Below are positions 24,719 through 46,312 of a stretch of 64,000 nucleotides of DNA, in pieces; position 1 is the first letter of the stretch, and each line of letters begins with the position of its first letter. Below the pieces are notes generated by a model. That model was not told the origin of the DNA, made no database searches, and saw only the letters and a program-made list of their open reading frames with translations. The translations under genes and the position numbers were made by a program. The stretch is from assembly GCF_009193255.1 (NCBI RefSeq), contig NZ_WACG01000007.1, positions 124,001 through 188,000 on the forward strand. The letters are read 5' to 3'. The DNA is from Arthrobacter koreensis. Its GTDB lineage: Bacteria > Actinomycetota > Actinomycetes > Actinomycetales > Micrococcaceae.

Positions 24719-24774
24719 CGAGAGGCCAGTTACGGCTCGTTTCAGCCCTGAAACAAGCCGTAACTGGCCTCTCG
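24719..24774. repeat. Long palindromic element, copy 1 (bidirectional terminator?)
   Basis: CGAGAGGCCAGTTACGGCT at 24719-24737 is perfectly inverted at 24756-24774. Inside, after one mismatch, a further 7 bp pair (GTTTCAG with CTGAAAC) around CC, so almost the whole element folds as one stem. Its outer 19 bases recur unchanged at 46257-46275. It lies between convergent genes and is followed by GTTTGTT, so it could terminate both. Confidence 0.8.
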
Positions 24775-24793
24775 TTTGTTATTGGGGGAGGGG

Positions 24794-25054
24794 CTAGCCG
24801 CCGGCGAAGGGTGGAAGGATGTCTACGGTGTCTTCGGGGGCCAGCAGCCGGGAATGGTCCCGCGCAGCGACCTCGTTGACCAGGAACGTGCTCCGTCCAA
24901 TCACGGTCTGCAGGACCGGGGTTCCCTCCGGGGCGTCCGGATGCAGCGCGGCCAGCTTTTCCAGCAGTTCCCCGAGCTGGAGGGGACCGGCGTCGAGGGT
25001 TTCTTCTTCAATGCCTGCCGCTGCCTTCGCAGCGCCAAAATAGCGGATCAGCAC
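24794..25054 (-). CDS. moaD: Molybdopterin synthase sulfur carrier subunit (MoaD/ThiS family)
   Basis: 86 residues ending in the Gly-Gly needed for thiocarboxylation (FAGG). It has the ubiquitin-like pattern LIRYFGAAKAAAG...FLVNEVAARDHSRLLAPEDTVDILPPFAGG. It donates sulfur to MoaE to form molybdopterin. The GTG start follows the moaA stop with no base between (TAAGTG), so the two are translationally coupled on the leftward strand. The ThiS alternative is less likely because moaA, moaE and moaC lie nearby. Confidence 0.9.
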   Translation of the reverse strand: MLIRYFGAAKAAAGIEEETLDAGPLQLGELLEKLAALHPDAPEGTPVLQTVIGRSTFLVNEVAARDHSRLLAPEDTVDILPPFAGG

Positions 25055-26155
25055 TTAGCCACCTATCGCACTCATGGTTCTGTCGGGCTGCACATAGTCG
25101 GGTGCGCCGAGTCCGGCATGGTCCATGCCGTGGGCTTTGGGTTTGCCCCACATCGCCTCCTGCCAGCGGCGGGCGACGGCGGCGTCGTCTCCGGTGCTGC
25201 GCAGCAGGTCCAGGAGGTCGGTCTCTTCGTGGGAGAACAGGCAGCTGCGGACCTTGCCCTCCGCGGTGATGCGGGTGCGGCGGCAGTCGGCGCAGAACGG
25301 CTCGGTGACGGAGGCAATAATGCCTACGACGCCGGCAACCTCCTCCGGCGCGGACCGGCGCCGCACCTGCCAGCGTTCGGCCGGAGCGCCGTCGCGGTTC
25401 CGGGGATCAGGGGTCAGGATGAAATCTTCTTCCAGCCGGGCGCGGATCTCGGCGGCGGTGATCATGCCGTCCCGGGTCCACCCATGGTCAGCGTCCAGGG
25501 GCATCTGCTCGATGAAACGCAGTTCGAATCCGTGCTCAACGGCCCAGGCCAGCAGCCCGGGTGCTTCGGCGTCGTTGATGCCGCGCATCAGCACTGCATT
25601 GATTTTGATCAGGCCGAGCCCTACCCGGGCTGCCTCTTCCACTCCGGCGAGAACCCGGTCAAGAAAGGGCCGGCGGGTGAGCTGCGCAAAGGTGCCCGGA
25701 TGCAGCGAATCCAGGGAGACATTGATCCGGCTCAATCCCGCTGCCTTCAGCGCCGCGGCCTTCTTGTCCAGGCCCAGGCCGTTTGTGGTCAGCGACACCG
25801 GGAGGTCTGGATGGTTCGCGCGGATGCCGGCCACGATGTCCACCAGGTCAGCGCGGACCAGTGGCTCGCCGCCGGTCAGGCGCAGTTCGCGCACGCCCAG
25901 CGAGTCGACGCCGATTCCCACCAGCCGGATGATCTCCCCGGCGCTGAGGACCTTGTCCTTGGGCAGCCAGTCCAGGCCTGAGGCCGGCATGCAGTAGGTG
26001 CAGCGCAGGTTGCATTTGTCGGTGAGGGAAAGGCGCATGTCCGTGGCACGGCGGTCGAAGCGGTCCACCAGGCCGTCCAACCGCGCCGGGGCACCGGATG
26101 CCCCCACGGCAGACGGTTGCCGTGCGATCGAGGGCATGCCCAGCTCAATTCCCAT
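25055..26155 (-). CDS. moaA: GTP 3',8-cyclase MoaA
   Basis: 366 residues. A radical SAM enzyme that starts molybdenum cofactor synthesis from GTP. The first cluster motif is C48-x3-C52-x2-C55 in DKCNLRCTYCMP; the second cluster cysteines lie in FCADCRR and RSCLFS near 280-300. The protein ends in SAIGG, the C-terminal double glycine that is functionally important in MoaA. A -10 box lies 6 bases before ATG 26155. The remaining moa genes lie 3 kb away on the other strand. Confidence 0.95.
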   Translation of the reverse strand: MGIELGMPSIARQPSAVGASGAPARLDGLVDRFDRRATDMRLSLTDKCNLRCTYCMPASGLDWLPKDKVLSAGEIIRLVGIGVDSLGVRELRLTGGEPLVRADLVDIVAGIRANHPDLPVSLTTNGLGLDKKAAALKAAGLSRINVSLDSLHPGTFAQLTRRPFLDRVLAGVEEAARVGLGLIKINAVLMRGINDAEAPGLLAWAVEHGFELRFIEQMPLDADHGWTRDGMITAAEIRARLEEDFILTPDPRNRDGAPAERWQVRRRSAPEEVAGVVGIIASVTEPFCADCRRTRITAEGKVRSCLFSHEETDLLDLLRSTGDDAAVARRWQEAMWGKPKAHGMDHAGLGAPDYVQPDRTMSAIGG

Positions 26156-26161
26156 CCCCCG

Positions 26162-26167
26162 AGTGTA
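26162..26167 (-). promoter_or_regulatory. -10 box of moaA, leaderless type
   Basis: Read leftward, TACACT ends 6 bases before ATG 26155. Confidence 0.5.
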
Positions 26168-26298
26168 GGCCGTTTCACACGCCGTCTCTAGGAAGGCCTG
26201 GCAGGGCAGGGCAGCAACCCCCGCCCGGTCCTGCCATAATCGAGGAAACGCCGGTGCCCGCCGGCGCGGCGAGCCGCCTGCGGCAAAGGAGCTTGGAT

Positions 26299-27819
26299 AT
26301 GCCAGGAACCCGCTGGTTCTCCGCTGCGGCGGGAGCAGTGGCGGCCGGAATCGCGGCCGCGGCAGGCGAACTTGCCGCAGCCGCGCTCAGCCCCTCCCTC
26401 TCACCGGTCACTGCCGTGGGATCGGTAGTGGTGGATGCCGTTCCAGCCCCGGTCAAGGACTGGGCCATCGCCGTCTTCGGCACCTCGGACAAGACCGCGC
26501 TGCTGGCTGGCATGCTGCTCCTCATCCTGGGTCTGGGAGCACTCTGCGGCCTGCTGGAGTCCCGGCGGCCGCCGTGGGGATCCGTGCTCCTGGCCAGCTT
26601 CGGGATCCTTGGTGCCGCCGCAGTTCTCACACGCGCCCAGTTCAGCCCGCTCGCGCTGCTTCCTCCGCTTGTCGCCGGCCTTGCCGGCGTCCTGGTACTC
26701 CGCGGACTCACGGCGCGGATCCGCCGCTACGGGCAGTCCACCGAGACGGGAGCCCGACGACGGGACGTCCTGATCGCGGTTGGCGGGGGAGCCGCCGTGG
26801 CTGCGGTGGGCGGCGGCCTGGCCGCGGCAGCGCGCAGCTCGCAGGTGGCTGTGGATGACCTGCGCGCGAACCTGCAGCTTCCGGCACCCGTGCAGCCTGC
26901 GGCGGCCGTTCCTGCGGGTGCGGAATTGGGTGTTCCGGGCGCCGAACCACTGATCACTCCCAACCCGGACTTCTACCGCATCGATACCGCGTTGAGGGTG
27001 CCCCTGATTAACCCGGACAGCTGGCGGCTGCGCGTTACCGGGATGGTGGACCGGGAAGTCGAGATCTCCTACGCGGACCTGCTGGCCAAACCGCTGCAGG
27101 AGAGCTGGGTGACCCTTGCCTGCGTCTCCAACGAGGTGGGCGGATCGCTGATCGGCAACGCCAGATGGCTTGGCTGGCCGGTGCGGATCCTCCTCGCGGA
27201 AGCGGGCGTGCAGCCTGGGGCGGACATGGTGCTGTCGCGAAGCGAGGACGGCTGGACAGCCACCACGCCGCTCGAAGCGCTTACGGATCCGCGTGACTCA
27301 CTGCTCGCTGTGGCCATGAACGGGGAGCCGCTGCCTCCCGAACACGGTTTTCCAGTGCGCCTCGTGGTTCCCGGACTGTACGGCTACGTATCGGCAACCA
27401 AGTGGGTGACGGAATTGACGGTTTCCCGCTTCGCGGACGAAACCTCGTACTGGACGGACCGAGGCTGGTCCGAACGCGGGCCCGTCAAGCTCTCCTCACG
27501 CATTGATACGCCCGCCAGGGGAGCGAAGGTCGCCGCCGGGAAAACCACGGTGGCGGGGGTGGCCTGGGCACAGCACACGGGCATCAGCGGCGTGGAGATC
27601 CGGGTGGACGACGGCGCCTGGCAGGACACGCGGCTGGCTGCCGGGATCTCGGCGGACACCTGGCGTCAGTTCGCGGCCGACGTCGACCTCCCGGAGGGCG
27701 AGCACACCCTCACGGTGCGGGCGATCGATGCCAAGGGCAACGTGCAGGACGAAGCGCAGCGTCCGGTGGTCCCGGACGGCGCAACCGGGCTGCACTCCAT
27801 CCGCGTCACCGCGGGCTGA
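26299..27819 (+). CDS. Membrane-anchored molybdopterin-dependent oxidoreductase (sulfite-oxidase fold)
   Basis: 506 residues. Four N-terminal helices (about 8-30, 67-88, 95-112 and 117-135) precede a fifth segment that begins with GARRRDVLIAVGGGAAVAAVGGG (151-173), resembling a Tat signal core. The exported part is a sulfite-oxidase-type domain with the molybdenum-ligand cysteine C275 in TLACVSNEVGG, then GNARWLGWPVRILL, and a C-terminal immunoglobulin-like dimerisation domain from about 400. It probably acts outside the membrane; donor and acceptor are unknown. GGAG precedes ATG 26299. Placement within the cofactor block fits a molybdoenzyme. Confidence 0.85.
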   Translation: MPGTRWFSAAAGAVAAGIAAAAGELAAAALSPSLSPVTAVGSVVVDAVPAPVKDWAIAVFGTSDKTALLAGMLLLILGLGALCGLLESRRPPWGSVLLASFGILGAAAVLTRAQFSPLALLPPLVAGLAGVLVLRGLTARIRRYGQSTETGARRRDVLIAVGGGAAVAAVGGGLAAAARSSQVAVDDLRANLQLPAPVQPAAAVPAGAELGVPGAEPLITPNPDFYRIDTALRVPLINPDSWRLRVTGMVDREVEISYADLLAKPLQESWVTLACVSNEVGGSLIGNARWLGWPVRILLAEAGVQPGADMVLSRSEDGWTATTPLEALTDPRDSLLAVAMNGEPLPPEHGFPVRLVVPGLYGYVSATKWVTELTVSRFADETSYWTDRGWSERGPVKLSSRIDTPARGAKVAAGKTTVAGVAWAQHTGISGVEIRVDDGAWQDTRLAAGISADTWRQFAADVDLPEGEHTLTVRAIDAKGNVQDEAQRPVVPDGATGLHSIRVTAG

Positions 27820-27834
27820 GCCGTGCCGGTCCGC

Positions 27835-27840
27835 TAGGGT
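27835..27840 (+). promoter_or_regulatory. -10 box of the tyrosine phosphatase gene, leaderless type
   Basis: TAGGGT ends 6 bases before ATG 27847. Confidence 0.45.
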
Positions 27841-27846
27841 CGGAGC

Positions 27847-28659
27847 ATGGCGATCCACAAGCTCGGGGGCACGTACAACTTCAGGGACACCGGTGGCCTG
27901 CCACTGGCCGACGGCGGCACCACAGCCTGCGGGGTCCTTTACCGGTCCGACGCCATCAGCTCGCTGACGCCGACGGGCCTGGCAGACCTGGCCGGCTCCG
28001 GAATCCGGGTCATTATCGACTACCGCACACCAGCGGAGCAGAAGATGGCCCCGGACCGCCTCCCGGCAGCCAGGGAGGTGGAAAAGGTGGACCTCCCGCT
28101 GCTCGAAGGAGCATTCACCGGGATGGCCGGGGAGGCCATGCAGCGTGCGGCGGCGTCGGGTGATCCGGCAGCCGCACGGAAGGCAATGGAGGCAGCGCTT
28201 GAACGGCTGCCCACCCTCGGCCAGCTCTACATCGGGATGCTGGAGCACGGCGCCGCCAACTTCGCACGCACCGCTGGAGAGGTTGCGGCGGGGGAGGGCG
28301 CAGTGCTGATCCACTGCACCGCAGGCAAGGACCGCACCGGAGTCGCCGCGGCCCTGCTCCTGGACGCCGCCGGCGCCGACAGGGACGCCGTCGTGGCTGA
28401 TTACGAACGCAGCGGGCAGGACCTGGCGGGAGAGTGGTCGGACCGGATGCTGGGAATGGTTGGGAGCATGGGCGTCCCGCTGACGGAACAGATAGTCACC
28501 CTGATTACGCGCGCGCCTGCGGAAGCCATCCAGTCCGCACTGGGCTGGGTCGAGGAGACCTATGGCTCCGCCGCCGCGTACCTCAGGGCCGGCGGGCTGA
28601 CAGATACTGAGCTCACCCGGCTGCGTGCCCGCCTGCGGCAGCCGCGCGCCCAGGCATAG
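27847..28659 (+). CDS. Tyrosine/dual-specificity protein phosphatase (PtpB-like)
   Basis: 270 residues. The P-loop is HCTAGKDRTG with C157 and R163 (CX5R). Like MptpB it begins NFRDTGGLPLADG and has YRSDAISSLTPTGLADLAGSGIRVIIDYRTPAE, the usual start of this bacterial family. Substrates may be phosphotyrosine, phosphoserine/threonine or phosphoinositides. No signal peptide is visible, so it is probably cytoplasmic, though MptpB-type proteins can leave the cell. It lies among molybdenum cofactor genes but carries its own -10 box, so the association may be chance. Confidence 0.85.
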   Translation: MAIHKLGGTYNFRDTGGLPLADGGTTACGVLYRSDAISSLTPTGLADLAGSGIRVIIDYRTPAEQKMAPDRLPAAREVEKVDLPLLEGAFTGMAGEAMQRAAASGDPAAARKAMEAALERLPTLGQLYIGMLEHGAANFARTAGEVAAGEGAVLIHCTAGKDRTGVAAALLLDAAGADRDAVVADYERSGQDLAGEWSDRMLGMVGSMGVPLTEQIVTLITRAPAEAIQSALGWVEETYGSAAAYLRAGGLTDTELTRLRARLRQPRAQA

Positions 28660-28689
28660 ACTCATGCGCAAAAGAAAGACTGGATACGG

Positions 28690-29940
28690 GTGGGAAACGT
28701 GAGTGCAGGCAGCCGGGTGCATCCCGTGGCAGAACACCAGGACACCGTCCGTGCGCTGCTGGCAGACAGCCTGCAGCAGCGCGTCCAGCAGCGCAGCCTC
28801 GTCGAAGCAGCCGGACGCATCCTGGCCGGTGACGTCACCGCGCCGCGCAGCCTGCCGCCGTTCGCCAACTCGCAGATGGACGGTTACGCGGTAAGGTCCG
28901 CCGAGCTGGCCGGACCGGACGGGAGCACCGTCGAGCTGCAGGCAGCAGCGCCCATCCCCGCAGGTGCTGCGGCCCCCGCGCTGCGCCCGGGAACCGCGGC
29001 CCCCATCATGACCGGCGCCATGCTTCCGGCCGGAGCGGACGCCGTCGTCCCGATTGAACGTGCGCAGCCGGATTCCTTCTTCGATCCCGCAGACCTCGCC
29101 GGGGCCCGTGTGCTCCTGCCGCGCGGAGTCCCGGCAGGACAGTTTGTCCGGACAGCCGGCAGCGATATTCCCTCCGGAACCCGGGCACTTGCCGGGGGCA
29201 CGCTGCTGGGACCGGCCCAGCTGGGCCTGCTGGCAGCCCTGGGTATTGCAGCCGTGCCGGTGCTGGCACCGGTGCGCGTGATGTTGCTGAGTACCGGGGA
29301 CGAAGTAGTTGAACCGGGCCAGGACCTCGCTCCGGGACAGATCCACGACGCCAACACCACCCTCCTGGCGGCCAGCCTCCGCGACGCCGGAGCGGAAGTG
29401 GTCCGCTCCCGGATTCTCGCGGATTCCCCGGCGGACTTCAGGAGCGCCCTGCGCGATGAACTCTCATCCGGCAGGGCAGACCTTGTGGTGACCACCGGCG
29501 GCATCAGCAAGGGTGCCTATGAAGTAGTGCGGCTTGCGCTGGAAGCGGAGGGCGTCGAGTTCTTCCCGGTGGCGATGCAGCCGGGCGGCCCGCAGGGTGC
29601 CGGCCGGGTTGACGGCGTCCCGTTCCTCGCGTTTCCCGGCAACCCGGTCAGCGCGCTGGTCTCCTTCGAGGTCTTCCTGCGCCCCGCGCTGACGGCGCTC
29701 ACCGGACTTCCCCGGCCCCGTCCCGCCCTCAGCGCGGTCCTGGACGAGACGGCGGACAGCCCCGAGGGAAAATTGCAGGTGCGGCGGGGACTCTTCCGCA
29801 ACGGACGAGTGGGGATGGTCGGCGGGCCCGGCTCCCACCTGGTCCATGCCCTGGCCGAGTCCAACGCGCTCGTCCTCGTCCCGGAAGGCACCGGACGGGT
29901 AGAAGCCGGCTCGGAAGTGACAGTATGGCTCTTGGAGTAA
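28690..29940 (+). CDS. moeA: Molybdopterin molybdenumtransferase MoeA
   Basis: 416 residues if GTG 28690 is used; GTG 28699 is equally possible. It inserts molybdenum into adenylated molybdopterin. Signatures are SLPPFANSQMDGYAV, the repeated P-G-x-A-A-P-IMTGAMLPAGADAVV region, STGDEV, DANTTLLAASL, the MPT-binding TTGGISKGAYEVV and FLAFPGNPVSALVSFEVFLRP. The four-domain architecture is complete. It begins the moeA-moaC-moaB-moaE run. Confidence 0.95.
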   Translation: MGNVSAGSRVHPVAEHQDTVRALLADSLQQRVQQRSLVEAAGRILAGDVTAPRSLPPFANSQMDGYAVRSAELAGPDGSTVELQAAAPIPAGAAAPALRPGTAAPIMTGAMLPAGADAVVPIERAQPDSFFDPADLAGARVLLPRGVPAGQFVRTAGSDIPSGTRALAGGTLLGPAQLGLLAALGIAAVPVLAPVRVMLLSTGDEVVEPGQDLAPGQIHDANTTLLAASLRDAGAEVVRSRILADSPADFRSALRDELSSGRADLVVTTGGISKGAYEVVRLALEAEGVEFFPVAMQPGGPQGAGRVDGVPFLAFPGNPVSALVSFEVFLRPALTALTGLPRPRPALSAVLDETADSPEGKLQVRRGLFRNGRVGMVGGPGSHLVHALAESNALVLVPEGTGRVEAGSEVTVWLLE

Positions 29941-29982
29941 GCCAACGCACAGGCTTAGAAGCACCATCGAAAGGACCCGAAC

Positions 29983-30477
29983 ATGTCCGGGGAAGAACGC
30001 TCCGGGGACGCACCGGCCCTCACCCACGTCCGCGCGGACGGCACCGCCCACATGGTTGACGTCTCCGCCAAGGCCGAAACCTCCCGCGAAGCCACCGCCC
30101 AGGCAGTCCTGAAGACCACCGAAGACGTGGTCCGGCTGCTCAGCGACGGAAACCTGCCCAAAGGCGATGCCTTTGCCGTATCCCGCGTCGCCGGGATCAT
30201 GGCCGCCAAGCAGACCTCGAACCTGATCCCGCTGTGCCACCCGCTGCCCATCACCAAGGTGACCGTGGACTTCGAGCCGCAGGAGAGCACCATCCTCATG
30301 AAGGCCACCGTGAAGACCAAGGCCCTCACCGGCGTCGAAATGGAGGCCCTGACCGCGGTTTCGGTCACAGCGCTGACGCTCTATGACATGGTCAAGGCCG
30401 TGGACAAGCATGCCGTGGTCTCAGACATCATGGTGCTGGCAAAGTCCGGCGGCAAGAGCGGAGACTGGAGCCTGTGA
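29983..30477 (+). CDS. moaC: Cyclic pyranopterin monophosphate synthase MoaC
   Basis: 164 residues. It completes cPMP formation after MoaA. Conserved residues are present: LTHV followed by [41 protein letters not shown] (with the catalytic His and Lys region), and [26 protein letters not shown] near the end. ATG 29983 has AAAGGA upstream. The stop overlaps the next gene in GTGA. Confidence 0.96.
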
Positions 30478-30974
30478 GCCGCCGCACCGACCCTGCGCCG
30501 CGCCGGACGGCCGCCATCCTGGTTGCCTCCACACGGGCAGCTGCCGGGATCTACCAGGATGAGGCCGGACCGCTGCTGCAGGACTGGCTGTACAGCCGCG
30601 GCTATGACGTTGTGCTCGCCGAAGTGGTTCCCGACGGCGAGCAGGTTGGCGCTGCGCTGCACCGCATGCTCGCCCTGGAGCCTTCGGTGTTGATCACCAG
30701 CGGCGGGACCGGCATCAGTTCCACGGACGCCACGCCGGAACAGACCCTGCCTCTGCTGGACCGCCAGGTTCCCGGGATCATGGAGGCGCTGCGTGCGCAT
30801 GGGCTGACCAAAACCCCCATGGCTGCGCTGACGCGCGGATACGCCGGGACAGCCGGGAGGACGTTCGTGCTGAACCTGCCCGGCTCGCCGTCCGGCGTCA
30901 CGGATTCACTGGAGGTCCTGGAGCCGGTTCTTGGACATATCTGCGGCCAGCTGGAGGGCATCAATGAGCACTAG
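30474..30974 (+). CDS. moaB: MoaB/Mog family molybdopterin adenylyltransferase
   Basis: 166 residues from GTG 30474, which overlaps the moaC stop. [17 protein letters not shown] is the signature of the MPT-binding fold and [25 protein letters not shown] the terminal motif. The family activates molybdopterin with ATP for MoeA. MoaB and Mog are hard to separate by sequence; I use moaB because actinobacterial moaC neighbours are generally so named. Confidence 0.9.
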
Positions 30975-31404
30975 CGAAGTAGTTGCGGCAACTGTCAGTG
31001 ACTCTGCCCTGGACACCGAAACCGCCTACACCGGGGTTTGGACGCCGGAGGCAGGCGCGGTTGTCACCTTCAGCGGAATCGTGCGGAACCACGACGGCGG
31101 CAAGGACGTGCGTTCGCTCGGTTACAGTGCGCATCCAACCGCCACGGCGGTGATCTCCGACGTTGCGGTCCGGATCGCCGCGAAGTATGACGGAGTGCGA
31201 ATCTGGGCAGCCCACCGAACCGGTCCGCTGGAAATCGGCGATGCCGCACTGGTGGCAGCCGTGGCCTCTGCCCACCGGGGAACCGCCTTCGCGGCGTGCT
31301 CGGAACTGGTTGACACCGTGAAGGCGGAGGTGCCCATCTGGAAGGAACAGGTCTTCGCTGACGGCACCGTGGAGTGGGTAGGCGTCAGTAACGCCCCGGC
31401 ATGA
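30964..31404 (+). CDS. moaE: Molybdopterin synthase catalytic subunit MoaE
   Basis: 146 residues from ATG 30964, which overlaps the end of moaB by 11 bases. Key motifs are VVTFSGIVRNHDGGKDVRSLGYSAHPTA, AAHRTGPLEIGDAALVAAVASAHRGTAFAACSELVDTVKAEVPIWKEQ, including the active-site lysines in VKAEVPIWKE. It receives sulfur from MoaD. The next gene, dapB, starts 17 bases later with its own -10 box. Confidence 0.95.
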   Translation: MSTSEVVAATVSDSALDTETAYTGVWTPEAGAVVTFSGIVRNHDGGKDVRSLGYSAHPTATAVISDVAVRIAAKYDGVRIWAAHRTGPLEIGDAALVAAVASAHRGTAFAACSELVDTVKAEVPIWKEQVFADGTVEWVGVSNAPA

Positions 31405-31408
31405 CCGG

Positions 31409-31414
31409 TAATCT
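31409..31414 (+). promoter_or_regulatory. -10 box of dapB, leaderless type
   Basis: TAATCT ends 6 bases before ATG 31421, just after the moaE stop. Confidence 0.5.
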
Positions 31415-31420
31415 GGATCC

Positions 31421-32179: not shown

Positions 32180-32190
32180 GGAAACCTGCG

Positions 32191-32673: not shown

Positions 32674-32692
32674 CCAGTTCCGGCCAGCTGAC
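32657..32692 (+). repeat. Perfect tandem duplication of 18 bp
   Basis: CAGTTCCGGCCAGCTGAC occurs at 32657-32674 and 32675-32692. The first copy contains the stop codon of the TPR-like gene, so the second lies in untranslated sequence. Confidence 0.9.
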
Positions 32693-32740
32693 TCTTTCAG
32701 CCGGCTGGCTGGTTCCGCCGTCTTACCGCCGTGTGGGTGC

Positions 32741-33913: not shown

Positions 33914-33989
33914 TCCAGAATCGTCTCACAGGGCCCGGACTGCCAGGGCTGCGAGGGTGTCCGTTTGTCCCAATCGCAGCTCCAACAGG

Positions 33990-33995
33990 TAACGT
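33990..33995 (+). promoter_or_regulatory. -10 box of dapA, leaderless type
   Basis: TAACGT ends 7 bases before ATG 34003. Confidence 0.5.
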
Positions 33996-34002
33996 TTTAC
34001 CC

Positions 34003-36719: not shown

Positions 36720-36725
36720 TAGCGT
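36720..36725 (+). promoter_or_regulatory. -10 box of ftsK, leaderless type
   Basis: TAGCGT ends 7 bases before ATG 36733. Confidence 0.5.
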
Positions 36726-36732
36726 GGCACCT

Positions 36733-39582: not shown

Positions 39583-39589
39583 ATCCGGT

Positions 39590-39595
39590 TAGGCT
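39590..39595 (+). promoter_or_regulatory. -10 box of pgsA, leaderless type
   Basis: TAGGCT ends 6 bases before GTG 39602, directly after the ftsK stop. Confidence 0.5.
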
Positions 39596-39601
39596 GGTTT
39601 T

Positions 39602-40207
39602 GTGAGCAATTCTGGAACCGAGCGGGTCCCCACCCTCAATATCGCCAACGTCCTGACGGTCATCCGCATCGTCATGGTGCCCCTGTTTATCTGGTTCCTC
39701 GTGGCCGACGACGGCAGGGACGGGCTCTTCCGCTGGCTGGCCGTGGCCACGTTCGCCGTCGCCATCTACACCGATAAGCTCGACGGCGACCTGGCGCGCA
39801 GCCGCGGCCTGATCACTGACTTTGGCAAGATTGCCGATCCAATCGCTGACAAGCTGCTGATCGGCTCGGCGCTGGTCATGCTTTCCATCTTGGGCGAGCT
39901 CTGGTGGTGGGTGACGATCGTGATCCTGGTGAGGGAAATCGGCATCACCGTGATGCGGTTCGTAGTAATCCGCTACGGGGTAATGGCGGCGTCCCGCGGA
40001 GGGAAGCTCAAGACCGTCATCCAGACGTTCGCTATCTTCCTGTTCCTGCTTCCCCTCACGTCCTGGCTCGGGGACTGGGCCTGGTGGATCAGCGCCGCAG
40101 TGATGGCCGCCGCCGTCGTCGTCACCGTGGTGACCGGACTTGATTACGTGGTGCAGGCGGTCCGGCTGCGTTCCGGCGCCCGCAGGAACCCGGGGACGGC
40201 ATCGTGA
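39602..40207 (+). CDS. pgsA: CDP-diacylglycerol--glycerol-3-phosphate 3-phosphatidyltransferase
   Basis: 201 residues with about five helices. The CDP-alcohol phosphotransferase motif is complete: D-x2-DG-x2-AR-x8-G-x3-D-x3-D in DKLDGDLARSRGLITDFGKIADPIAD. It makes phosphatidylglycerol phosphate, the precursor of PG and cardiolipin. The position between ftsK and cinA/clgR matches pgsA paralogues of other actinobacteria; the substrate is taken from that context. It overlaps the next gene in GTGA. Confidence 0.92.
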   Translation: MSNSGTERVPTLNIANVLTVIRIVMVPLFIWFLVADDGRDGLFRWLAVATFAVAIYTDKLDGDLARSRGLITDFGKIADPIADKLLIGSALVMLSILGELWWWVTIVILVREIGITVMRFVVIRYGVMAASRGGKLKTVIQTFAIFLFLLPLTSWLGDWAWWISAAVMAAAVVVTVVTGLDYVVQAVRLRSGARRNPGTAS

Positions 40208-40677
40208 GCACCCCGGCGGAGCTGGTGGTAGCGGCCGCGGCCGCCACACGAACACGGATCGCAGCAGCGGAGTCACTGACCGCAGGCATGGTCGCGGCCG
40301 AACTGGGCACCGTGCCCGGCGCATCCGCGGTTCTCCAGGGGGGAGTGGTCGCCTACCAGAACTCCGTGAAGGAGAGCGTGCTTGGCGTGGACGGGTCCCT
40401 TCTACAGGCAGCCGGTTCAGTGGATGCCCGCGTGGCCGAACAGATGGCTGCGGGGGTGCGGCGGCTCCTCGACGCGGAGATTGGAATTTCCACCACGGGC
40501 GTGGCCGGACCCGAGCCCCACGACGGAAAACCCGTTGGTACCGTCTTCATCGGGGTCGCGGCAGCATCCGGCAGTAGTGCACGGGAGTTCCATTTCACGG
40601 GGGACCGGGCCTCGATCCGCAGCCAGGCCTGCGCTGCCGCCCTGGACCTGCTCGCCGTCGAGCTGGGTGCCGCTTAG
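40204..40677 (+). CDS. Nicotinamide-nucleotide amidohydrolase (CinA C-terminal domain, PncC type)
   Basis: 157 residues, only the C-terminal amidohydrolase domain without the COG1058 N-terminal part of full CinA. Motifs: RIAAAESLTAGMVAAELGTVPGASAVLQGGVVAYQNSVKESVLGV and STTGVAGPEPHDGKPVGTVFIGV. It deamidates NMN for NAD recycling. GTG 40204 overlaps the pgsA stop, so the two are coupled. The same pair precedes clgR in Mycobacterium. Confidence 0.92.
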   Translation: MSTPAELVVAAAAATRTRIAAAESLTAGMVAAELGTVPGASAVLQGGVVAYQNSVKESVLGVDGSLLQAAGSVDARVAEQMAAGVRRLLDAEIGISTTGVAGPEPHDGKPVGTVFIGVAAASGSSAREFHFTGDRASIRSQACAAALDLLAVELGAA

Positions 40678-40793
40678 CAGCTGCCGGAGACGGTGTCTGG
40701 AGGATCCGGAACGGGTACGGGAACAAATCCGCCGGGGCATGAGTTACTAGTATCAGGAACCACCAAGGTTTCCGGTTTAGGATCGTAGACATT

Positions 40794-40811
40794 CCGCGGT
40801 TCGAACCGCGG
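40794..40811. promoter_or_regulatory. Perfect 18-bp palindrome upstream of the ClgR-type gene
   Basis: CCGCGGTTCGAACCGCGG is its own reverse complement. It lies 124 bases before the clgR-type start, shortly before GATATAGGG, a possible -10. ClgR proteins regulate their own genes in other actinobacteria, but this sequence does not match the spacing of the CGC-N5-GCG motif I recall. An operator or a hairpin are both possible. Confidence 0.5.
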
Positions 40812-40934
40812 TCGGATCGATATAGGGAGCAGGACATACACATGGTGAAGCAACCCGTGTCCGTGAACGGCGTCATTCGCTGGCGGGATGTAGGGTTGGC
40901 GGAAGATGCACACCGGGAGCCTAAGGAGCGCAAA

Positions 40935-41267
40935 ATGGTAGTTCTACGCCACGAGATTGGTGATGTACTCCGTGATGTACGCCAGCGCCAGGGCCGTACC
41001 CTGCGTGAGGTGTCGCACAGTGCCCGGGTTTCGCTCGGTTACCTGAGCGAAGTTGAGCGGGGCCAGAAGGAAGCTTCTTCTGAACTCCTGTCCTCTATCT
41101 GCAGTGCCCTCGATGTACCTCTGTCCCTGATGCTTCGTGAGGTCAGTGACCGTGTGGCCAGCGCCGAAGGCGTTTCCATTCCCGATACTGTTCCAACGGA
41201 GTTCTCGCGCGAGTTCGCCCGCGAGTTCCCGGAGGACCTGGCTCGGGACCTGGCCCGCACGCCGTAA
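40935..41267 (+). CDS. clgR: ClgR-type XRE family transcriptional activator
   Basis: 110 residues. Helix-turn-helix of the Cro/CI type: [59 protein letters not shown] matches Corynebacterium and Mycobacterium ClgR, which activates clp protease genes under envelope and protein stress. ATG 40935 is chosen for AAGGAG 6 bases upstream; the open frame reaches back to 40842 but with unconserved sequence. The repeated [15 protein letters not shown] tail resembles the degradable C-terminus of ClgR. The symbol rests on homology and place after pgsA-cinA. Confidence 0.88.
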
Positions 41268-41311
41268 CAACCTCGGACAGCAGTGTGAGCTGTCCGCCCC
41301 AAAGACATACT

Positions 41312-41343
41312 CGAAAGACCCCGCCTCCGGGCGGGGTCTTTCG
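41312..41343. terminator. Bidirectional terminator between clgR and the MarR gene
   Basis: CGAAAGACCCCGCC (41312-41325) pairs perfectly with 41330-41343 around TCCG. The arms contain AAAG/CTTT, giving a short T-run on either strand; the flanking genes are convergent. Confidence 0.9.
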
Positions 41344-41357
41344 TCGTTTGGGGCAGG

Positions 41358-41834
41358 CTACTTGGAGCCCTCCGGCACCTGCGAAGCGTTGAGTTTGTGG
41401 AGCAGGAGGCTGAGGGTATGCACCTCGTCCTCGTCCCAGGAAGCCAGCAGGGCGCGGAAGTGCTTCTCGCGGGCACGCTGGGTGCGCGCGAGCTGCTCAC
41501 TTCCGGATTCGGTCAGGCTGATGGTCTGTGCCCGGCCGTCCTCCGGATCCGCCTGCTTCTCCACTAGTCCCAGGGACTCGAGCATGACGATCTGGCGGCT
41601 CACGGAAGGTTTGCCCACTCCGATGGCCGCAGCAACGTCCGTCAGGCGCAGCGGACCCCGCCGCTGCAGGAGGACGAGCAGGCCATAGGCTGCCGGCTCG
41701 AGGTCCGGGTGCACGGCCCGTGCCACACGCTGGGAGGCAGCGCGCGCCCGGCGCCACAGGACGCTGAGTTCCTGTTCGAGGTTCTCGATGGCCTGGTTCG
41801 AACTGGAAGCGGCTGCCGGGGGCTTGTCGGTCAT
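41358..41834 (-). CDS. MarR family transcriptional regulator
   Basis: 158 residues. The winged-helix pattern AYGLLVLLQRRGPLRLTDVAAAIGVGKPSVSRQIVMLESLGLVEKQADPEDGRAQTISLTESG is typical, with the wing DPEDGRAQ. A Ser/Ala-rich N-terminal tail and a C-terminal dimer helix frame it. The ligand and targets are unknown; no MarR-type operator stands out next to it. A -10 box TAGAAT lies 6 bases before ATG, so the transcript is probably leaderless. Confidence 0.88.
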   Translation of the reverse strand: MTDKPPAAASSSNQAIENLEQELSVLWRRARAASQRVARAVHPDLEPAAYGLLVLLQRRGPLRLTDVAAAIGVGKPSVSRQIVMLESLGLVEKQADPEDGRAQTISLTESGSEQLARTQRAREKHFRALLASWDEDEVHTLSLLLHKLNASQVPEGSK

Positions 41835-41840
41835 ACAGCC

Positions 41841-41846
41841 ATTCTA
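41841..41846 (-). promoter_or_regulatory. -10 box of the MarR gene, leaderless type
   Basis: Read leftward, TAGAAT ends 6 bases before ATG 41834. Confidence 0.5.
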
Positions 41847-41935
41847 GGCGGCGGAGGGCGGGCGGCCGGGCCGGAGCGGGAAGCACGGACCGGGTTGGGG
41901 AGCGGGGCGCCACCCGGGCGTGAGACGATTAATTG

Positions 41936-42160
41936 ATGCGTATCAGTGATTTCTGGCGGCTCATGGATGATGAATTCGGGTCTGCGTACTCCCGCGTGCT
42001 GGCGGCGGACCTCGTCCTGACCGGTCTGGGCGGCCGGACCGCGCAGCAGGCACTGGATAGCGGAACGGACCCCAAAAGGGTCTGGCTGGAGGTCTGCGAG
42101 ATGCAGGAGGTCCCGCCGGAGCGCAGGCTGGGGCGGGACATCAAACCCAAGCAGTCGTAG
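41936..42160 (+). CDS. DUF3046 protein
   Basis: 74 residues. MRISDFWRLMDDEFGSAYSRVLAADLVLTGLGGRTAQQALDSG and VCEMQEVPPERRLG are the conserved DUF3046 features. The family lies directly upstream of recA in many actinobacteria (Rv2738c in M. tuberculosis), and its function is unknown. TTG 41933 is an alternative start one codon earlier. The recA SOS box starts 20 bases after its stop. Confidence 0.9.
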   Translation: MRISDFWRLMDDEFGSAYSRVLAADLVLTGLGGRTAQQALDSGTDPKRVWLEVCEMQEVPPERRLGRDIKPKQS

Positions 42161-42179
42161 ACACGCGGGAGCGATCTAT

Positions 42180-42195
42180 TCGAATATCTGTTCGG
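42180..42195 (+). promoter_or_regulatory. LexA (SOS) box upstream of recA
   Basis: TCGAATATCTGTTCGG differs from the actinobacterial consensus TCGAAC-N4-GTTCGA at two positions. TATGCT (42203-42208) is a plausible -10 just downstream, so LexA bound here would block the recA promoter. The remaining leader up to 42371 shows no gene; AGAGGTGA before ATG is the ribosome site. Confidence 0.85.
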
Positions 42196-42371
42196 ATCCC
42201 GATATGCTCCTACACAGGGGCAGCAACTGGTCCGCCCCGCTCCGGCTGTCCACACCGGCACCTGGCCGCCGCGGCAGTGTCAGTGCCGTCGCATACGGTT
42301 CACAGTGAGCAACCGACAGTCGGCCCACGGGCCGGGAATATCAGCAACAGCCACAACAACAGAGGTGAAGA

Positions 42372-43421
42372 ATGGCCGCTCCAGACCGCGCCAAAGCACT
42401 CGAAGCAGCACTGGCCCAGATCGACAAGCAGTTCGGCAAGGGCTCGATCATGCGGCTTGGCGACGAGACGCGCGCCCCGATCGAAACAATCTCCACCAGC
42501 TCCATTGCGCTGGACATTGCGCTGGGCATTGGCGGCCTTCCCCGCGGCCGCGTCGTGGAGATCTACGGACCCGAATCTTCCGGTAAGACCACGGTGGCGC
42601 TCCACGCCGTTGCGAACGCGCAGAAAAACGGCGGTATCGCCGCGTTCATTGACGCTGAGCACGCCCTGGACCCGGAGTACGCCAAGAAGCTCGGCGTTGA
42701 CACCGACGCCCTGCTGGTTTCCCAGCCGGACACCGGCGAGCAGGCGCTCGAGATCATGGACATGCTGGTCGGCTCGGGCTCACTGGACATTGTGGTCATC
42801 GACTCCGTGGCCGCCCTTGTGCCCCGCGCTGAAATCGAAGGCGAAATGGGCGACAGCCATGTTGGCCTGCAGGCACGGCTCATGAGCCAGGCGCTGCGTA
42901 AGATCACCGGCCGCCTGAGCCAGACCAAGACCACCGCCATTTTCATCAACCAGCTGCGTGAAAAGATCGGTGTGTTCTTCGGCAGCCCGGAAACCACCAC
43001 CGGTGGCAAGGCACTGAAGTTCTACGCGTCCGTCCGTATTGACGTACGCCGCATCGAGACGCTGAAGGAAGGTACCAACCCGGTTGGTAACCGTACCCGC
43101 GCCAAGATCGTCAAGAACAAGATGGCCCCGCCGTTCAAGCAGGCCGAGTTCGACATCATTTACGGTCAGGGCATTTCCCGCGAAGGCGGCCTAATCGACA
43201 TGGGCGTTGAGCACGGGATCGTCAAGAAGTCCGGTGCCTGGTTCACCTACGACGGTGACCAGCTGGGCCAGGGTAAGGAAAACTCCCGCCGCTTCCTCCG
43301 GGACAACCCGGAACTGGCGGACGAGATTGAGCGGCGCCTGCGGGTCAAGCTCGGCGTGGACGTGCAGCCCGAAGAACAGGCAGCTGACGGCAAGGCCAGC
43401 GCGGCAGCAGCCGGCGCCTAG
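42372..43421 (+). CDS. recA: Recombinase A
   Basis: 349 residues. The strand-exchange ATPase and co-protease for LexA. Walker A is GPESSGKT at 66-73, exactly as in E. coli; the catalytic glutamate lies in DAEHALDP, and Walker B in [14 protein letters not shown]. The L2-loop region and [30 protein letters not shown] are intact and no intein is present. SOS control is shown by the box at 42180. recX follows 9 bases after its stop. Confidence 0.98.
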
Positions 43422-43430
43422 CCGAAACCC

Positions 43431-44003
43431 GTGCAGAATCGCCGCCGCAGGCCGGGGGGAGGGGGCCAAGACGGTCCCACCCCCGGCTCAGCAGCAGACG
43501 CAACGCCGGAAGCCGATCCACACTCCGTAGCGCGTGCGATTATCCTGCGCCAGCTGACGAGCTCCGCCAAGAGCAGGCAGCAGCTGGCGGACAAACTGGC
43601 CGAGAGGGATGTCCCCGAAGACGTGGCCAACGCGGTCCTGGACCGGTTCGAAGAAGTCCAGCTGATTGATGACGCCGAGTTCGCGCGCATGTGGGTCAGG
43701 AGCCGATCCCAGACACGGTCGCTGGCACGCTCCGCCATCCGGCGGGAACTGGCAGGCAAGGGGATTGATCCGGAACTGGCCGAAGAAGCACTGGAGCAGA
43801 TCAGCGCTGATGACGAGGTCGAGGCAGCCAAGGACCTGGTTGGGCGCAGACTTCGCCGTGCCGCCGTGCCTGCCGACCCGCAGGAACGAGACAAACTGGT
43901 TCGTCGGCTGGTGTCCATGCTCGCCAGGAAGGGCTACTCACCTTCGCTGGGCTTTTCGGTCGTCAACGACGCCCTAAGCGCACGCCAGGACGGTGGGCTG
44001 TAA
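43431..44003 (+). CDS. recX: Regulatory protein RecX
   Basis: 190 residues. RecX binds RecA filaments and limits their activity. Three-helix repeats are visible: ARAIILRQLTSSAKSRQQLADKLAERDVPEDVANAVLDRFEEVQLIDDAEFARMWV, then SRSQTRSLARSAIRRELAGKGIDPELAEEAL, then LVRRLVSMLARKGYSPSLGFSVVNDAL. A Gly/Pro/Asp-rich N-terminal tail of about 30 residues precedes them. GTG 43431 starts 9 bases after recA, so both respond to the same SOS box. Confidence 0.93.
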   Translation: MQNRRRRPGGGGQDGPTPGSAADATPEADPHSVARAIILRQLTSSAKSRQQLADKLAERDVPEDVANAVLDRFEEVQLIDDAEFARMWVRSRSQTRSLARSAIRRELAGKGIDPELAEEALEQISADDEVEAAKDLVGRRLRRAAVPADPQERDKLVRRLVSMLARKGYSPSLGFSVVNDALSARQDGGL

Positions 44004-44033
44004 CAGCCTTCCAGGCGTCTTGATGTCGTGCCG

Positions 44034-44039
44034 TATGCT
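44034..44039 (+). promoter_or_regulatory. -10 box of the first lysozyme-like gene
   Basis: TATGCT ends 9 bases before ATG 44049. The next paralogue has TACGGT at the same 9-base distance. Confidence 0.4.
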
Positions 44040-44048
44040 GTCATCACT

Positions 44049-45353
44049 ATGTTTACTGTGAGGCTGTTGGGGCGGAAGTTGCACAACCCTGCCCTGGCAG
44101 CTGTTGCAGCGGGCGTTTTGGGGGCCACCCTGCTGACCGGAATACCTTCGGCCGCCGCTGCGGAGTACCCGTCCTGGGACGACATTTCTGCGGCCAAGTC
44201 AGACACAGCTTCCACCGAGGAGCAGGTCCGGAAACTCGAAGACCTCCTGGACCGTCTCTATGACGAAGCGGGAAACCTGGGCAATGCCGCCGTGTCTGCG
44301 TCGAGCCGCTACGACGAGCTTCGGGCCGAAGTCGAGGCCAGTGACGCACGCCTGGCGGATCTGGCAGCACAACGCAGTGCCGCCTCAGCCCGCGCCGGTG
44401 AACTCCGGAACCAGATTGGGGCCTTGGCCGCCCAGACCTACAAGACGGGAGGGATGGACAGCACTGTCCTGTTCCTTCTCGATGCGGAGGAGGGCGCCGA
44501 ACATCTGGACCGTCTCACCACGCTCTCACTTGTCACCGAACGTACCTCCCGCCTCTATGGCGAAGCTGAAGCGGCCCGGAAAACGGCAGAGTCCCTCGAA
44601 GAAGCCGAGCAGCTGGAACGTCAGGCGCGGGGCAAGCTGGCGGCGCTGGCCGGAGAGCAGTACGAGGACGCCCAGTCCGCCACGCAGGCCGCAGAGAAGG
44701 CCGTACGTGAGCAGGAAGAGCGCAGCGCGGTTCTTGCCGCCCAGCTGGCAGAGCTGCGCAGTTCGACCGCCGAAGCGGAGCTCGGCCGGATCCAGGCCGC
44801 GCGGCTGGAGGAATCCGTCCGGCAGCAGGCAGAAGAAGCCCGCAAGGCCGCCGAGAATTCACCCGGCAGGGAGGCCGACGCGGTGATTAATCCCACAACT
44901 CCCAGACCTCCGGCAACGCCGGAAAACACCCCGGCGCCAGCCCCCGTCCCGGAACCAGTGCCCGCTCCGGCACCGGCGCCGGCACCGAATCCGCCGGTTC
45001 CCGCACCCCAGCCACCGCCCCCTCCGCCACCCGCCGCGCCAGTGAATGACCCGGCCGGAGCCCAGGCCTTCGCGGCTTCCATGATGGGCGGCTACGGATG
45101 GAGCAACGGCGAATTCAGGTGCCTCGTCGATTTGTGGAACCGGGAATCAAACTGGCTGACCAGCGCCATGAATCCCTACAGCGGTGCCTATGGGATTCCG
45201 CAGTCGCTGCCGGGAGACAAGATGGCTGCGGCCGGAAGCGACTGGCGCACCAACTACCAGACCCAAATCCGGTGGGGCCTCAGCTATATAGCGCAGAGAT
45301 ACGAGACGCCCTGCGGGGCCTGGGCCCACTCGGAACAAAAGGGCTGGTATTAA
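44049..45353 (+). CDS. Secreted coiled-coil protein with C-terminal lysozyme/transglycosylase-like domain (paralogue 1)
   Basis: 434 residues. The signal peptide runs to about 33 (ending IPSAAAAEYP). Two long coiled-coil stretches (about 40-120 and 155-265, rich in Glu, Ala, Arg) resemble RipC/PcsB-type proteins. A Pro-rich hinge (about 280-340, PAPVPEPVPAPAPAP) leads to a C-terminal domain of about 90 residues that is also found in the next gene. Its segment LVDLWNRESNWLTSAMNPYSGAYGIPQSLPG holds a candidate catalytic glutamate (RESNW) as in small lytic transglycosylases. It probably acts on peptidoglycan outside the cell. Confidence 0.75.
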   Translation: MFTVRLLGRKLHNPALAAVAAGVLGATLLTGIPSAAAAEYPSWDDISAAKSDTASTEEQVRKLEDLLDRLYDEAGNLGNAAVSASSRYDELRAEVEASDARLADLAAQRSAASARAGELRNQIGALAAQTYKTGGMDSTVLFLLDAEEGAEHLDRLTTLSLVTERTSRLYGEAEAARKTAESLEEAEQLERQARGKLAALAGEQYEDAQSATQAAEKAVREQEERSAVLAAQLAELRSSTAEAELGRIQAARLEESVRQQAEEARKAAENSPGREADAVINPTTPRPPATPENTPAPAPVPEPVPAPAPAPAPNPPVPAPQPPPPPPPAAPVNDPAGAQAFAASMMGGYGWSNGEFRCLVDLWNRESNWLTSAMNPYSGAYGIPQSLPGDKMAAAGSDWRTNYQTQIRWGLSYIAQRYETPCGAWAHSEQKGWY

Positions 45354-45419
45354 ACCGGCTTCGTTACCGGAACGCAACCCGGGCGTTACCTAAACGCGAC
45401 CTTGTTCAGGATCGATGTG

Positions 45420-45425
45420 TACGGT
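45420..45425 (+). promoter_or_regulatory. -10 box of the second lysozyme-like gene
   Basis: TACGGT ends 9 bases before ATG 45435, the same spacing as for the preceding paralogue. Confidence 0.35.
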
Positions 45426-45434
45426 CCCGGTCCT

Positions 45435-46241
45435 ATGAGCAACTTTCAGGGACGCCGTGAACAGAGGCAGCAGCGCGCTGCGCAGCGCCGCCGCAACCGG
45501 ATGAAGGTGGGCGCGGTCGCCGCTCTCGGTGGAATCATGGTGCTGGGAACCGCCGGTGCTGCCGCGGGAGAAGAAGACTTCCGCGCCACGGCAGGTATCC
45601 AGCTGGCGAGTCTCGCGTTGCCGCTGTTCACCGACGCCCCGGTGCCGGAAAGCGGCAATGCTTCCGGGCAGGAGTCCGCTTCGGAACCCGAGCCGAACTC
45701 CTCCGCTGACGCTGTTCCGCAGGCCGGCGGAACCCCCACGGGCCAGCCTGAGGCGGGGCAGCAGACGGACGGACAGCAGACGGCAGACCAGCACAGTGGT
45801 GAACAGGCCGAGGCAGAAGCCCAGGCAGCCGCAGCCCGTGAAGCTGAGGCTGCTGCGGCAGCACAAAAGGCTGCAGCAGACCAGGCGGCAGCCGAAGAAG
45901 CAGCCCGCATTGCAGCGGCCTCCGTGCCGCTGGATGATCCCGCCGGAGCCAAGGCCTATGCCGCTTCCGTCCTTGGCGGCCATGGCTGGGACGCTTCACA
46001 GATGACGTGCCTCGACACCCTGTGGAACAAGGAATCCGAGTGGCTGACCAGCGCAACGAACGCCAGCTCCGGCGCCTACGGCATCCCGCAGGCACTGCCC
46101 GGGACCAAGCTGGCCGCCGCCGGCAGCGATTGGCAGACCAACTACCGTACCCAGGTCAACTGGGGCCTGACCTATATCGAGTCGCGCTACGGCAGTCCCT
46201 GCTCCGCGCTGAACTTCCACTACGCCAACAACTGGTACTAA
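45435..46241 (+). CDS. Secreted protein with C-terminal lysozyme/transglycosylase-like domain (paralogue 2)
   Basis: 268 residues from ATG 45435. A basic start (GRREQRQQRAAQRRRNRMK) precedes a hydrophobic helix (about 23-43), so the protein is exported or anchored. A low-complexity middle rich in Ala, Glu and Gln (about 70-165) leads to the shared C-terminal domain: DPAGAKAYAASVLGGHGWDASQMTCLDTLWNKESEWLTS...GAYGIPQALPG, ending in NNWY. The candidate catalytic glutamate is in NKESEW. The domain is roughly 60 percent identical by eye to that of the gene before it; the rest of the two proteins differs. Confidence 0.75.
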   Translation: MSNFQGRREQRQQRAAQRRRNRMKVGAVAALGGIMVLGTAGAAAGEEDFRATAGIQLASLALPLFTDAPVPESGNASGQESASEPEPNSSADAVPQAGGTPTGQPEAGQQTDGQQTADQHSGEQAEAEAQAAAAREAEAAAAAQKAAADQAAAEEAARIAAASVPLDDPAGAKAYAASVLGGHGWDASQMTCLDTLWNKESEWLTSATNASSGAYGIPQALPGTKLAAAGSDWQTNYRTQVNWGLTYIESRYGSPCSALNFHYANNWY

Positions 46242-46256
46242 GCCCCGGCGAACCGC

Positions 46257-46312
46257 CGAGAGGCCAGTTACGGCTCTTCCCGGCGCTGAAAAGAGCCGTA
46301 ACTGGCCTCTCG
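46257..46312. repeat. Long palindromic element, copy 2
   Basis: The outer 19 bases CGAGAGGCCAGTTACGGCT (46257-46275) equal those of the element at 24719. Here the perfect inverted arms are longer: 46257-46278 pairs with 46291-46312 (22 bp), around a 12-base loop that differs from copy 1. It lies between two rightward genes, 15 bases after one stop and 33 bases before the miaB -10 box. Confidence 0.8.

Follow-up and report, generated by a model that had tools for sequence, protein, structure and literature searches.

What kind of element places the same arm sequence, in inverted pairs, at separate sites of one genome? The question arises from a window of Arthrobacter koreensis DNA (the whole stretch analyzed, 64,000 nucleotides), in which the original prediction had marked two palindromes, here copies 1 and 2, with identical 19-bp arms in both orientations. 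The arm, CGAGAGGCCAGTTACGGCT, has four exact occurrences in the window, two per orientation, and all four predicted arms are exact (4/4, against 0.02 expected); shuffled versions of the window gave a mean of 0.02 matches at three or fewer mismatches, and four were reached in 0 of 100 shuffles. Both elements are 56 bp long, as had been proposed, and the neighbor genes confirm that copy 1 lies between convergent genes and copy 2 between codirectional ones (Table 1).

Table 1. Palindromic elements of the window, their arms and the genes around them (window coordinates)
Feature	Position	Strand	Remark
Left arm of copy 1	24719..24737	+	exact match to arm
Right arm of copy 1	24756..24774	-	exact match to arm
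Left arm of copy 2	46257..46275	+	exact match to arm
Right arm of copy 2	46294..46312	-	exact match to arm
Copy 1, 56-bp palindrome, arm type A (TTACG, positions 12-16)	24719..24774	.	between convergent genes
Copy 2, 56-bp palindrome, arm type A	46257..46312	.	15 bp past stop codon of upstream codirectional gene
Third member, 56-bp palindrome, arm type B (AAACT)	817..872	.	repeat search, wider pattern
M16-family peptidase gene	23308..24702	+	3' end towards copy 1
ThiS/MoaD-like gene	24794..25054	-	3' end towards copy 1
moaA	25055-26155		upstream of ThiS/MoaD-like gene
Gene with aggregation-promoting-factor C-terminal domain	45402..46241	+	stops 15 bp ahead of copy 2
miaB	46357..47898	+	downstream of copy 2

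A dispersed family of near-constant length

The repeat search returned inverted arms of 27 nt at 96% for copy 1 and of 22 nt, perfect, for copy 2. The third member had gone unmarked in the original prediction; the ORF at 168-824, upstream of it, has its end inside that element. As single-stranded DNA, copy 1, copy 2 and the third member fold with z scores of -11.5, -10.5 and -7.4, respectively. The proposal of a dispersed palindromic family was borne out by the search for further copies in the genome. The arm of copies 1 and 2 is present at 30 places, 28 of which are two-armed, spanning 56 bp in 27 cases and 62 bp in one. A wider pattern matched 88 places in the same genome, and the reversed control pattern matched 0. 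When a core pattern was permitted to span 52-60 bp in five genomes, 63 of 64 places measured 56 bp and one measured 55; in other genera the length is 56-58 bp. The elements end in CGAGA on both sides, most commonly with CAT before and ATG after. The copies are nonetheless individual, 139 of the 147 collected differing in sequence.

With a covariance model, relatives were detected in 61 of the 197 Micrococcaceae genomes searched. Plasmid and phage records gave no match to one 56-base query each, and in Rfam, searched with copy 1 only, the best match reached 27.2 bits, far short of the gathering score of 80. We found no paper with fragments of the arm sequences in the full-text literature, and no description of the palindrome family among the matches listed. 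The RepRanger paper (PMC12306157) tabulates Arthrobacter livingstonensis, with counts of 5,512 and 705.

Paired halves and lineage-specific arms

The members are near-perfect palindromes whose halves agree beyond their consensus. There were 706 half-to-half matches among 29 A copies, compared to 673.5 (sd 6.2) in shuffled halves, and 974 among 38 B copies, compared to 874.8 (sd 9.7). Among the A copies, the two halves match at the central positions 25-27 more often than shuffled halves do, and positions 19-24 show no pairing beyond their consensus (position 21, for example, matched in 11/29 copies against 9.6 expected). A set of 62 copies picked for diversity displayed double changes in 18 of 26 pairs and a covariation score of 0.378 against 0.131, the score being inflated by the mixture of arm types in this set. 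The inner parts of copies 1 and 2 had been described as different, with an unrelated loop in copy 2. They are in fact related, as the halves share one degenerate inner consensus.

The outer arms behave as a code of limited variety. They are genome-specific in five other genomes (five sampled genera), and positions 12-18 hold few letter sets in 68 copies collected without specifying those positions. The constancy of the arm within type A is partly a matter of ascertainment, since the A copies were mostly found via the arm; the conservation of C1, G2, C9, G17 and C18 across genera was partly built in by the model search, and our case does not rest there. We expect specificity to lie at positions 6-8 and 12-16, with about positions 20-37 held mainly by pairing. 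Agreement between arms is also expected of a double-stranded binding site that forms no hairpin.

Orthologous sites can carry different arm types. This was the case in 36 of 85 orthologous pairs, a share that is not a rate, given that sister-species loci were mostly retrieved with an A arm. In switched pairs the inner 18 positions retained 11.84 matches against 10.63 expected (15 sites, p 0.001-0.004), a modest retention of the core that is absent at several sites, that of copy 1 included. At one convergent gene pair an element is found in each of three genomes, which represent two genera, and every genome has its own arms there. Copies with chimeric halves also occur (e.g., G005 L241:3182). 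Arm types that differ at one site in sister species are predicted by neither REPs nor MITEs as such.

Siting at gene ends and transcription termination

The 66 placed copies are sited soon after stop codons, 32 of them between convergent genes, 27 between codirectional and 7 between divergent genes. Among background gene pairs the convergent share is 28 of 183, against 32/66 here (p 2e-7), and codirectional copies lie at a median of 19 bp from the stop codon. Among 227 neighbors of 115 elements no recurrent gene was seen; the largest cluster of neighbor genes (7) resembles ABC transporters on visual inspection of how the sequences begin.

A hairpin shortly past a stop codon is reminiscent of intrinsic terminators. 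The elements might accordingly be transcription terminators present in many copies, or hairpins at mRNA 3' ends that end or protect transcripts; at convergent sites they would act on both strands, and the shared letters would stem from an old duplication. The closeness to stop codons and the under-representation of divergent gaps would fit, as would the junction of copy 1, where 18 of 20 element-free genomes show another hairpin (by eye), some with T-runs. Convergent copies also have somewhat more T after the element (mean 2.18), with at least 5 T in the next 10 nt on 16 of 152 sides. In contrast, 49 codirectional copies contain 1.69 T in the next 10 nt on the sense strand and 1.67 on the antisense strand, and at least 5 T in only 1 of 49. 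Their non-Watson-Crick cells on the sense strand comprise 32 G.U and 31 A.C (p 1.0). With 63 cells in total, and with some of the copies orthologous to one another, this negative outcome is still compatible with weak RNA selection. The nearly equal numbers indicate no RNA-strand bias and favor DNA over RNA as the form that matters. The stem, up to 28 bp, far exceeds that of the usual terminator, in which stems are much shorter. Nor would termination need strict arm letters that are shared among copies and differ between lineages, and in G023 the miaB junction has no element at all. The original prediction had held that copies lying exclusively at 3' ends with T-tracts would amount to only a favored terminator; most are at 3' ends, but the codirectional ones lack the T-tract signature. 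We consider termination an unlikely explanation of the family.

Mobility, known systems and a possible recognition factor

The original prediction had likened the elements to REP or MITE families and pointed to a REP-associated tyrosine transposase. The likeness holds insofar as these are dispersed palindromes. No Y1_Tnp (RAYT) gene was detected in nine Arthrobacter genomes, comprising the own genome and eight relatives, with a control that was positive in 5 of 14 known genomes. Excerpts of two papers describe REPs and REPtrons with TnpA-REP (RAYT) as dispersed extragenic palindromes with preserved paired changes and lineage-specific sequences (PMC2817692, PMC8266576), and the present family, at 88 places and with gene-end siting in its placed copies, is likewise repetitive, extragenic, palindromic and of many copies. 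According to part of PMC1525189, REPs also often occupy the space between convergent genes and serve as targets for IS elements. Unlike the RAYT-associated REPs, which the excerpts present as stem-loops of 20-50 nt preceded on one side by a conserved tetranucleotide, in most cases GTAG, the present elements measure 56 bp and carry the same sequence at both ends. With MITEs, among which Correia and RUP elements are named in an excerpt of PMC2817692, they share a short, dispersed, non-coding, inverted-repeat form. In contrast, copies here are almost never identical, and no target duplication longer than 2 bp was seen in 147 copies, a MITE origin being no more than a possibility.

Non-autonomous REP- or MITE-like mobile palindromes, tolerated at gene ends only and served by a transposase now lost or unrecognized, could still account for subfamilies that are dispersed and differ in copy number by lineage. 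Site 3 of the L230 region would also suit such mobility: the element is present in G000, whereas G017, G023 and G024 have 54-55 bp less at the site, and the region in G018 has no element. In the 147 copies, per-position direct matches between flanks exceeded shuffles at 1-3 bp (z 3.3, 3.0 and 2.7); whole direct matches numbered 40 against 32.5 at 2 bp, 1 against 0.7 at 3 bp, and none at 4-12 bp. The slight excess leaves room for a target duplication of 1-2 bp. Mobility is argued against by the lack of Y1_Tnp in nine Arthrobacter genomes and of longer duplications in 147 copies, by the fact that almost every copy has its own sequence, and by orthologous retention, which extends across genera, with cores that partly survive arm switches. 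On balance mobility, too, is improbable, if not strongly so.

A pair of arms 1.3 kb apart in Edens01 was considered as the ends of a parent transposon and was rejected, the frame between them being an IS30-family transposase inside an A copy. The IS30-family element sits centrally in that copy, and a similar end sequence occurs in a second copy; this position identifies the palindrome as the target. A non-systematic look revealed no parent IS sharing the element ends, the IS between arms being this IS30-family insert. IS1655 belongs to the IS30 family. An excerpt of PMC1525189 names IS3, IS110, IS4, IS256 and IS5 as REP-targeting families, and IS1655 is tabulated as well, at a low ratio. An excerpt of PMC9333248 reports IS30 hot spots, one of them termed nearly palindromic. 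The Edens01 insertion resembles both precedents, but here the target is the present palindrome family.

In one region, missing gene blocks terminate at elements. Such element-bounded losses, the chimeric halves and symmetric pairing free of RNA-strand bias could all be mutational outcomes in a family that has neither recognizer nor function, replication template switching keeping the halves paired and ectopic recombination homogenizing the arms. These processes leave unexplained why the elements prefer gene ends, why they keep so closely to 56 bp and why positions 12-18 hold few letter sets in copies with diverged cores, and we regard a purely mutational origin as very improbable.

Near-constant length, halves agreeing beyond consensus, gene-end siting, lineage-specific outer arms and site-wise differences in arm type are established for the family. 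The function that we infer for the elements is that of REP-like DNA palindromes with outer arms recognized by a putative factor, which would make them neither classical REPs nor merely favored terminators; this reading is possible and is put forward tentatively. In each arm, the outer 18 bp would serve as the recognition sequence for a factor acting on the element at the DNA level, by binding or processing it, whether in duplex, cruciform or single-stranded hairpin form, and the inner part would be held mainly by pairing, clearly in B-type and more weakly in A-type copies. Where the preference of the factor shifts in a lineage, both arms would be re-lettered in place, by copy-to-copy conversion and the templating of one arm on the other, and part of the core may stay. 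That an IS30-family transposon lands in the elements and that block deletions end at them would be side effects. The lack of Y1_Tnp in the nine Arthrobacter genomes and of a recurrent gene around the 115 elements counts against a recognizer. A broader version, of Micrococcaceae-wide gene-end palindromes with a fast-changing arm code, a putative structure-reading protein, chromosome-wide re-lettering in place and blocks lost between elements, is rather doubtful.

REP-like palindromes are explained today via RAYT, and here is an abundant actinobacterial family with RAYT undetected in nine Arthrobacter genomes. The family spans genera and has remained palindromic and located at the ends of genes, while the arm letters change at fixed sites. 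As positions of specificity and of pairing can be separated by comparison, the partner of these elements is accessible to a direct search, through pull-down or phyletic patterns.

Anatomy, copy number and pairing

Both palindromes of the original prediction are present at its positions, with their arms exact in four places (0.02 in shuffles), and the window holds a third (table). Folded as single-stranded DNA, the three gave z scores of -11.5, -10.5 and -7.4. Each half-element reads CGAGA, three variable positions, CAG, a five-letter block that determines the type, GC and about ten inner positions; the main arm types have TTACG (type A), AAACT (type B) or AAAGT (type C) in this block.

Coordinates of the palindromes in the window and of a transposase inserted in a related copy
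Feature	Sequence	Positions	Strand	Remarks
Third palindrome	window	817-872		same build as copies 1 and 2
Copy 1	window	24719-24774		between convergent genes
Copy 2	window	46257-46312		upstream of miaB
IS30-family transposase	locus L131	4495-5694		inside A-type palindrome, Arthrobacter sp. Edens01

Copies beyond the two first noticed are plentiful. When up to two mismatches are allowed, the A. koreensis genome (G000; 15 contigs, 3.55 Mb) has the arm at 30 places, 28 of them two-armed within the same tolerance, the span being exactly 56 bp in 27 and 62 bp in one. The exact 17-base arm core was found in 37 stretches of a named genome collection; 29 belong to A. citreus, A. gandavensis, A. luteolus and Arthrobacter sp. 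Edens01, and the other eight, single arms in unrelated genomes, are as many as chance would give in 257 billion bases. This exact 17-mer is present in 6 of 99 genomes, all within the genus. A core pattern allowing 52-60 bp matched 64 places in 5 of 29 genus genomes, 56 bp long at 63 and 55 bp at one. The wider pattern CGAGA-N3-CAG-N34-CTG-N3-TCTCG, applied strictly, matched 61 places in G000, 47 in G005, 44 in G023, 34 in G024, 32 in G017 and 12 in G004 (G-numbers denote compared genomes), and one in each of six further genomes (12 of 148 overall); with up to two mismatches, 88 places were counted in G000 and none for the reversed control. The sequences are diverse (139 distinct among 147 collected copies).

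The two halves of a copy agree beyond what type alone gives. Half-to-half matches came to 706 in 29 A copies, against 673.5 (sd 6.2) with shuffled same-type halves, and to 974 in 38 B copies, against 874.8 (sd 9.7). In B the excess extends over most of the variable positions between 6 and 26; in A it lies at positions 4, 8, 11, 14 and 25-27, and positions 19-24 showed no agreement beyond shuffled halves in the 29 copies. Among 62 copies picked for diversity, with arm types mixed, 91.9% of cells were paired, double changes occurred in 18 of 26 pairs, and the covariation score was 0.378 (shuffles 0.131; slid controls no higher than 0.096). A palindrome family with gene-end location and maintained pairing is well supported; purely mutational upkeep is a remaining rival to the reading of DNA-level action given below.

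Location at gene ends and the form that may act

Genes were called by a simple codon-usage caller trained on the window. The 68 flanked copies of G000 comprise 32 convergent, 27 codirectional and 7 divergent placements and 2 at locus ends; among background pairs of genes, taken from 224 kb of that genome, the first three classes number 28, 127 and 28. Convergent placement is enriched over these pairs (p 2e-7) and divergent placement depleted (p 0.03, against gaps of at least 56 bp). Across all loci, 143 distinct copies divide into 76 convergent, 49 codirectional, 12 divergent and 6 unplaced, and in codirectional copies the element starts a median of 19 bp after the stop codon. The flanks of 147 copies are C-rich upstream and G-rich downstream, whichever strand is read, the commonest being CAT before and ATG after the 56 bp (both in 22 copies).

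Two side observations concern position along the contigs. On contig C1 of G024, with the origin set by a dnaA-like gene near base 260 (locus L372) identified by eye from sequence, the origin half holds 28 of 42 elements (p 0.04) and the last fifth before the terminus 1 of 42, among the matches listed. At the start of G000 contig C7 (L063:1-132), a diverged A copy begins at base 77 immediately after a C run, which suggests an assembly break beside a palindrome.

Selection on an RNA hairpin should make codirectional copies tolerate G.U above A.C on the transcribed strand. The 49 such copies carry 32 G.U and 31 A.C (p 1.0) and 56 other mismatches; G000 copies alone carry 17 G.U and 12 A.C. After codirectional elements the T count is likewise the same on either side (1.69 versus 1.67), so nothing in these copies points to the RNA form being the one maintained. 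Beside convergent copies T is a little more frequent (mean 2.18; at least 5 T at 16 of 152 sides), so some may end transcripts. That the elements are simply terminators, which the original prediction had named as one possible refutation, is a remaining rival: the gene-end location agrees with it, but no T-tract signature appears in codirectional copies. Action at the DNA level, together with a putative recogniser, is the best inference, held tentatively at somewhat short of an even chance.

Arm switching and block loss at orthologous sites

At the copy-1 junction, read by eye, the element is of type A in G000 and G024, type B in G005, G017 and G023, and C-type in G004, with decayed forms of the C-type element in G007, G011 and G020. 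Eighteen genomes have other hairpins there, some with T-runs, no hairpin was seen in G008, and in G010 no intergenic sequence separates the genes. Several element-free species (L173, L175, L177-L184) carry another, similar hairpin at this junction, AAAGGCACACCCGG or near it, perhaps itself a repeated family. The miaB junction has type A in G000 and G005, the arm AAGAA in G024, a decayed element in G017 and no element in G023.

Type was shared in 49 and different in 36 of 85 orthologous pairs; with a few loci added (90 pairs), 17 of 39 sites held more than one type, shares that are not rates because most sister-species loci were fetched by the A arm. Sites were linked by flank similarity, which makes the L230 region one site. 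In 33 of 40 cross-type pairs, from 15 sites, the inner 18 positions gave 11.84 matches where 10.63 were expected (p 0.001, or 0.004 with a single draw from each site), and the outer positions 25.64, with 25.41 expected for the types (p 0.23). Retention of the core is clear in G017 L128 versus G000 L214 (16 of 18) and G024 L085 versus G004 L276 (15 of 18); copy 1 showed none (10-11 matches, 11.6 expected). Two G005 elements, L241:3182 and L272:4646, have halves of mixed arm type or a core like that of a neighbouring G000 site, and may represent intermediate stages in arm switching or in recombination between copies.

In the L230 region, the gene blocks of G017 run a-b-c-d-e, and elements lie at a|b, b|c and c|d. 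G018 has a-b-c-d with about 2 kb extra between c and d; no element was found in this region of G018, nor was block e found next to these blocks. G000 and G023 are without c (12 kb), G005 without c and d, and G024 without b, and every new junction holds one element (that of G023 imperfect, seen by eye). Among 69 orthologous pairs, both flanks were kept in 51, one was unrelated in 15 (11 from this region) and 3 were shifted; in a rough control, homologous flanks continued for at least 700 bp in 113 of 120. Homologous recombination between copies would suffice for these block losses.

Spread across the Micrococcaceae and relation to REPs

A covariance model (E 0.001, up to 28 candidates scored per genome) matched in 61 of 197 family genomes and 20 of 32 genera, with none in 136 genomes. 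In five genomes, each of a different genus, two-strand matches numbered 58 (G007), 40 (G112), 36 (G242), 47 (G230) and 57 (G046), or about 18-29 elements per genome. Convergent placements account for 36 of 58 elements that we chose from 146 two-strand matches, codirectional ones for 16 and divergent ones for 4, with 2 unplaced; within each of the five genomes most of these copies share genome-specific arms. One convergent gene pair has an element in G000, G007 and G112.

Literature searches, including arm fragments in full text, found no description of this family among the results listed. No REP-associated tyrosine transposase, for which the original prediction had proposed to look, was found, Y1_Tnp being absent from nine Arthrobacter genomes with a working control; lost mobility is a remaining rival. 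REPs, in the passages available of PMC8266576 and PMC2817692, are 20-50 nt long, have a GTAG-type motif in front and are tied to TnpA-REP, whereas the present palindromes have both ends alike and no such motif. REPs are also described, in part of PMC1525189, between convergent genes and as IS targets, and in both respects the palindromes resemble them: an IS30-family element of Arthrobacter sp. Edens01 (L131:4435-5757) separates the two halves of an A copy at its centre, and similar end sequence lies between the halves of a second copy. By the tests made the family is no member of the REPs, yet it works like them in several ways.
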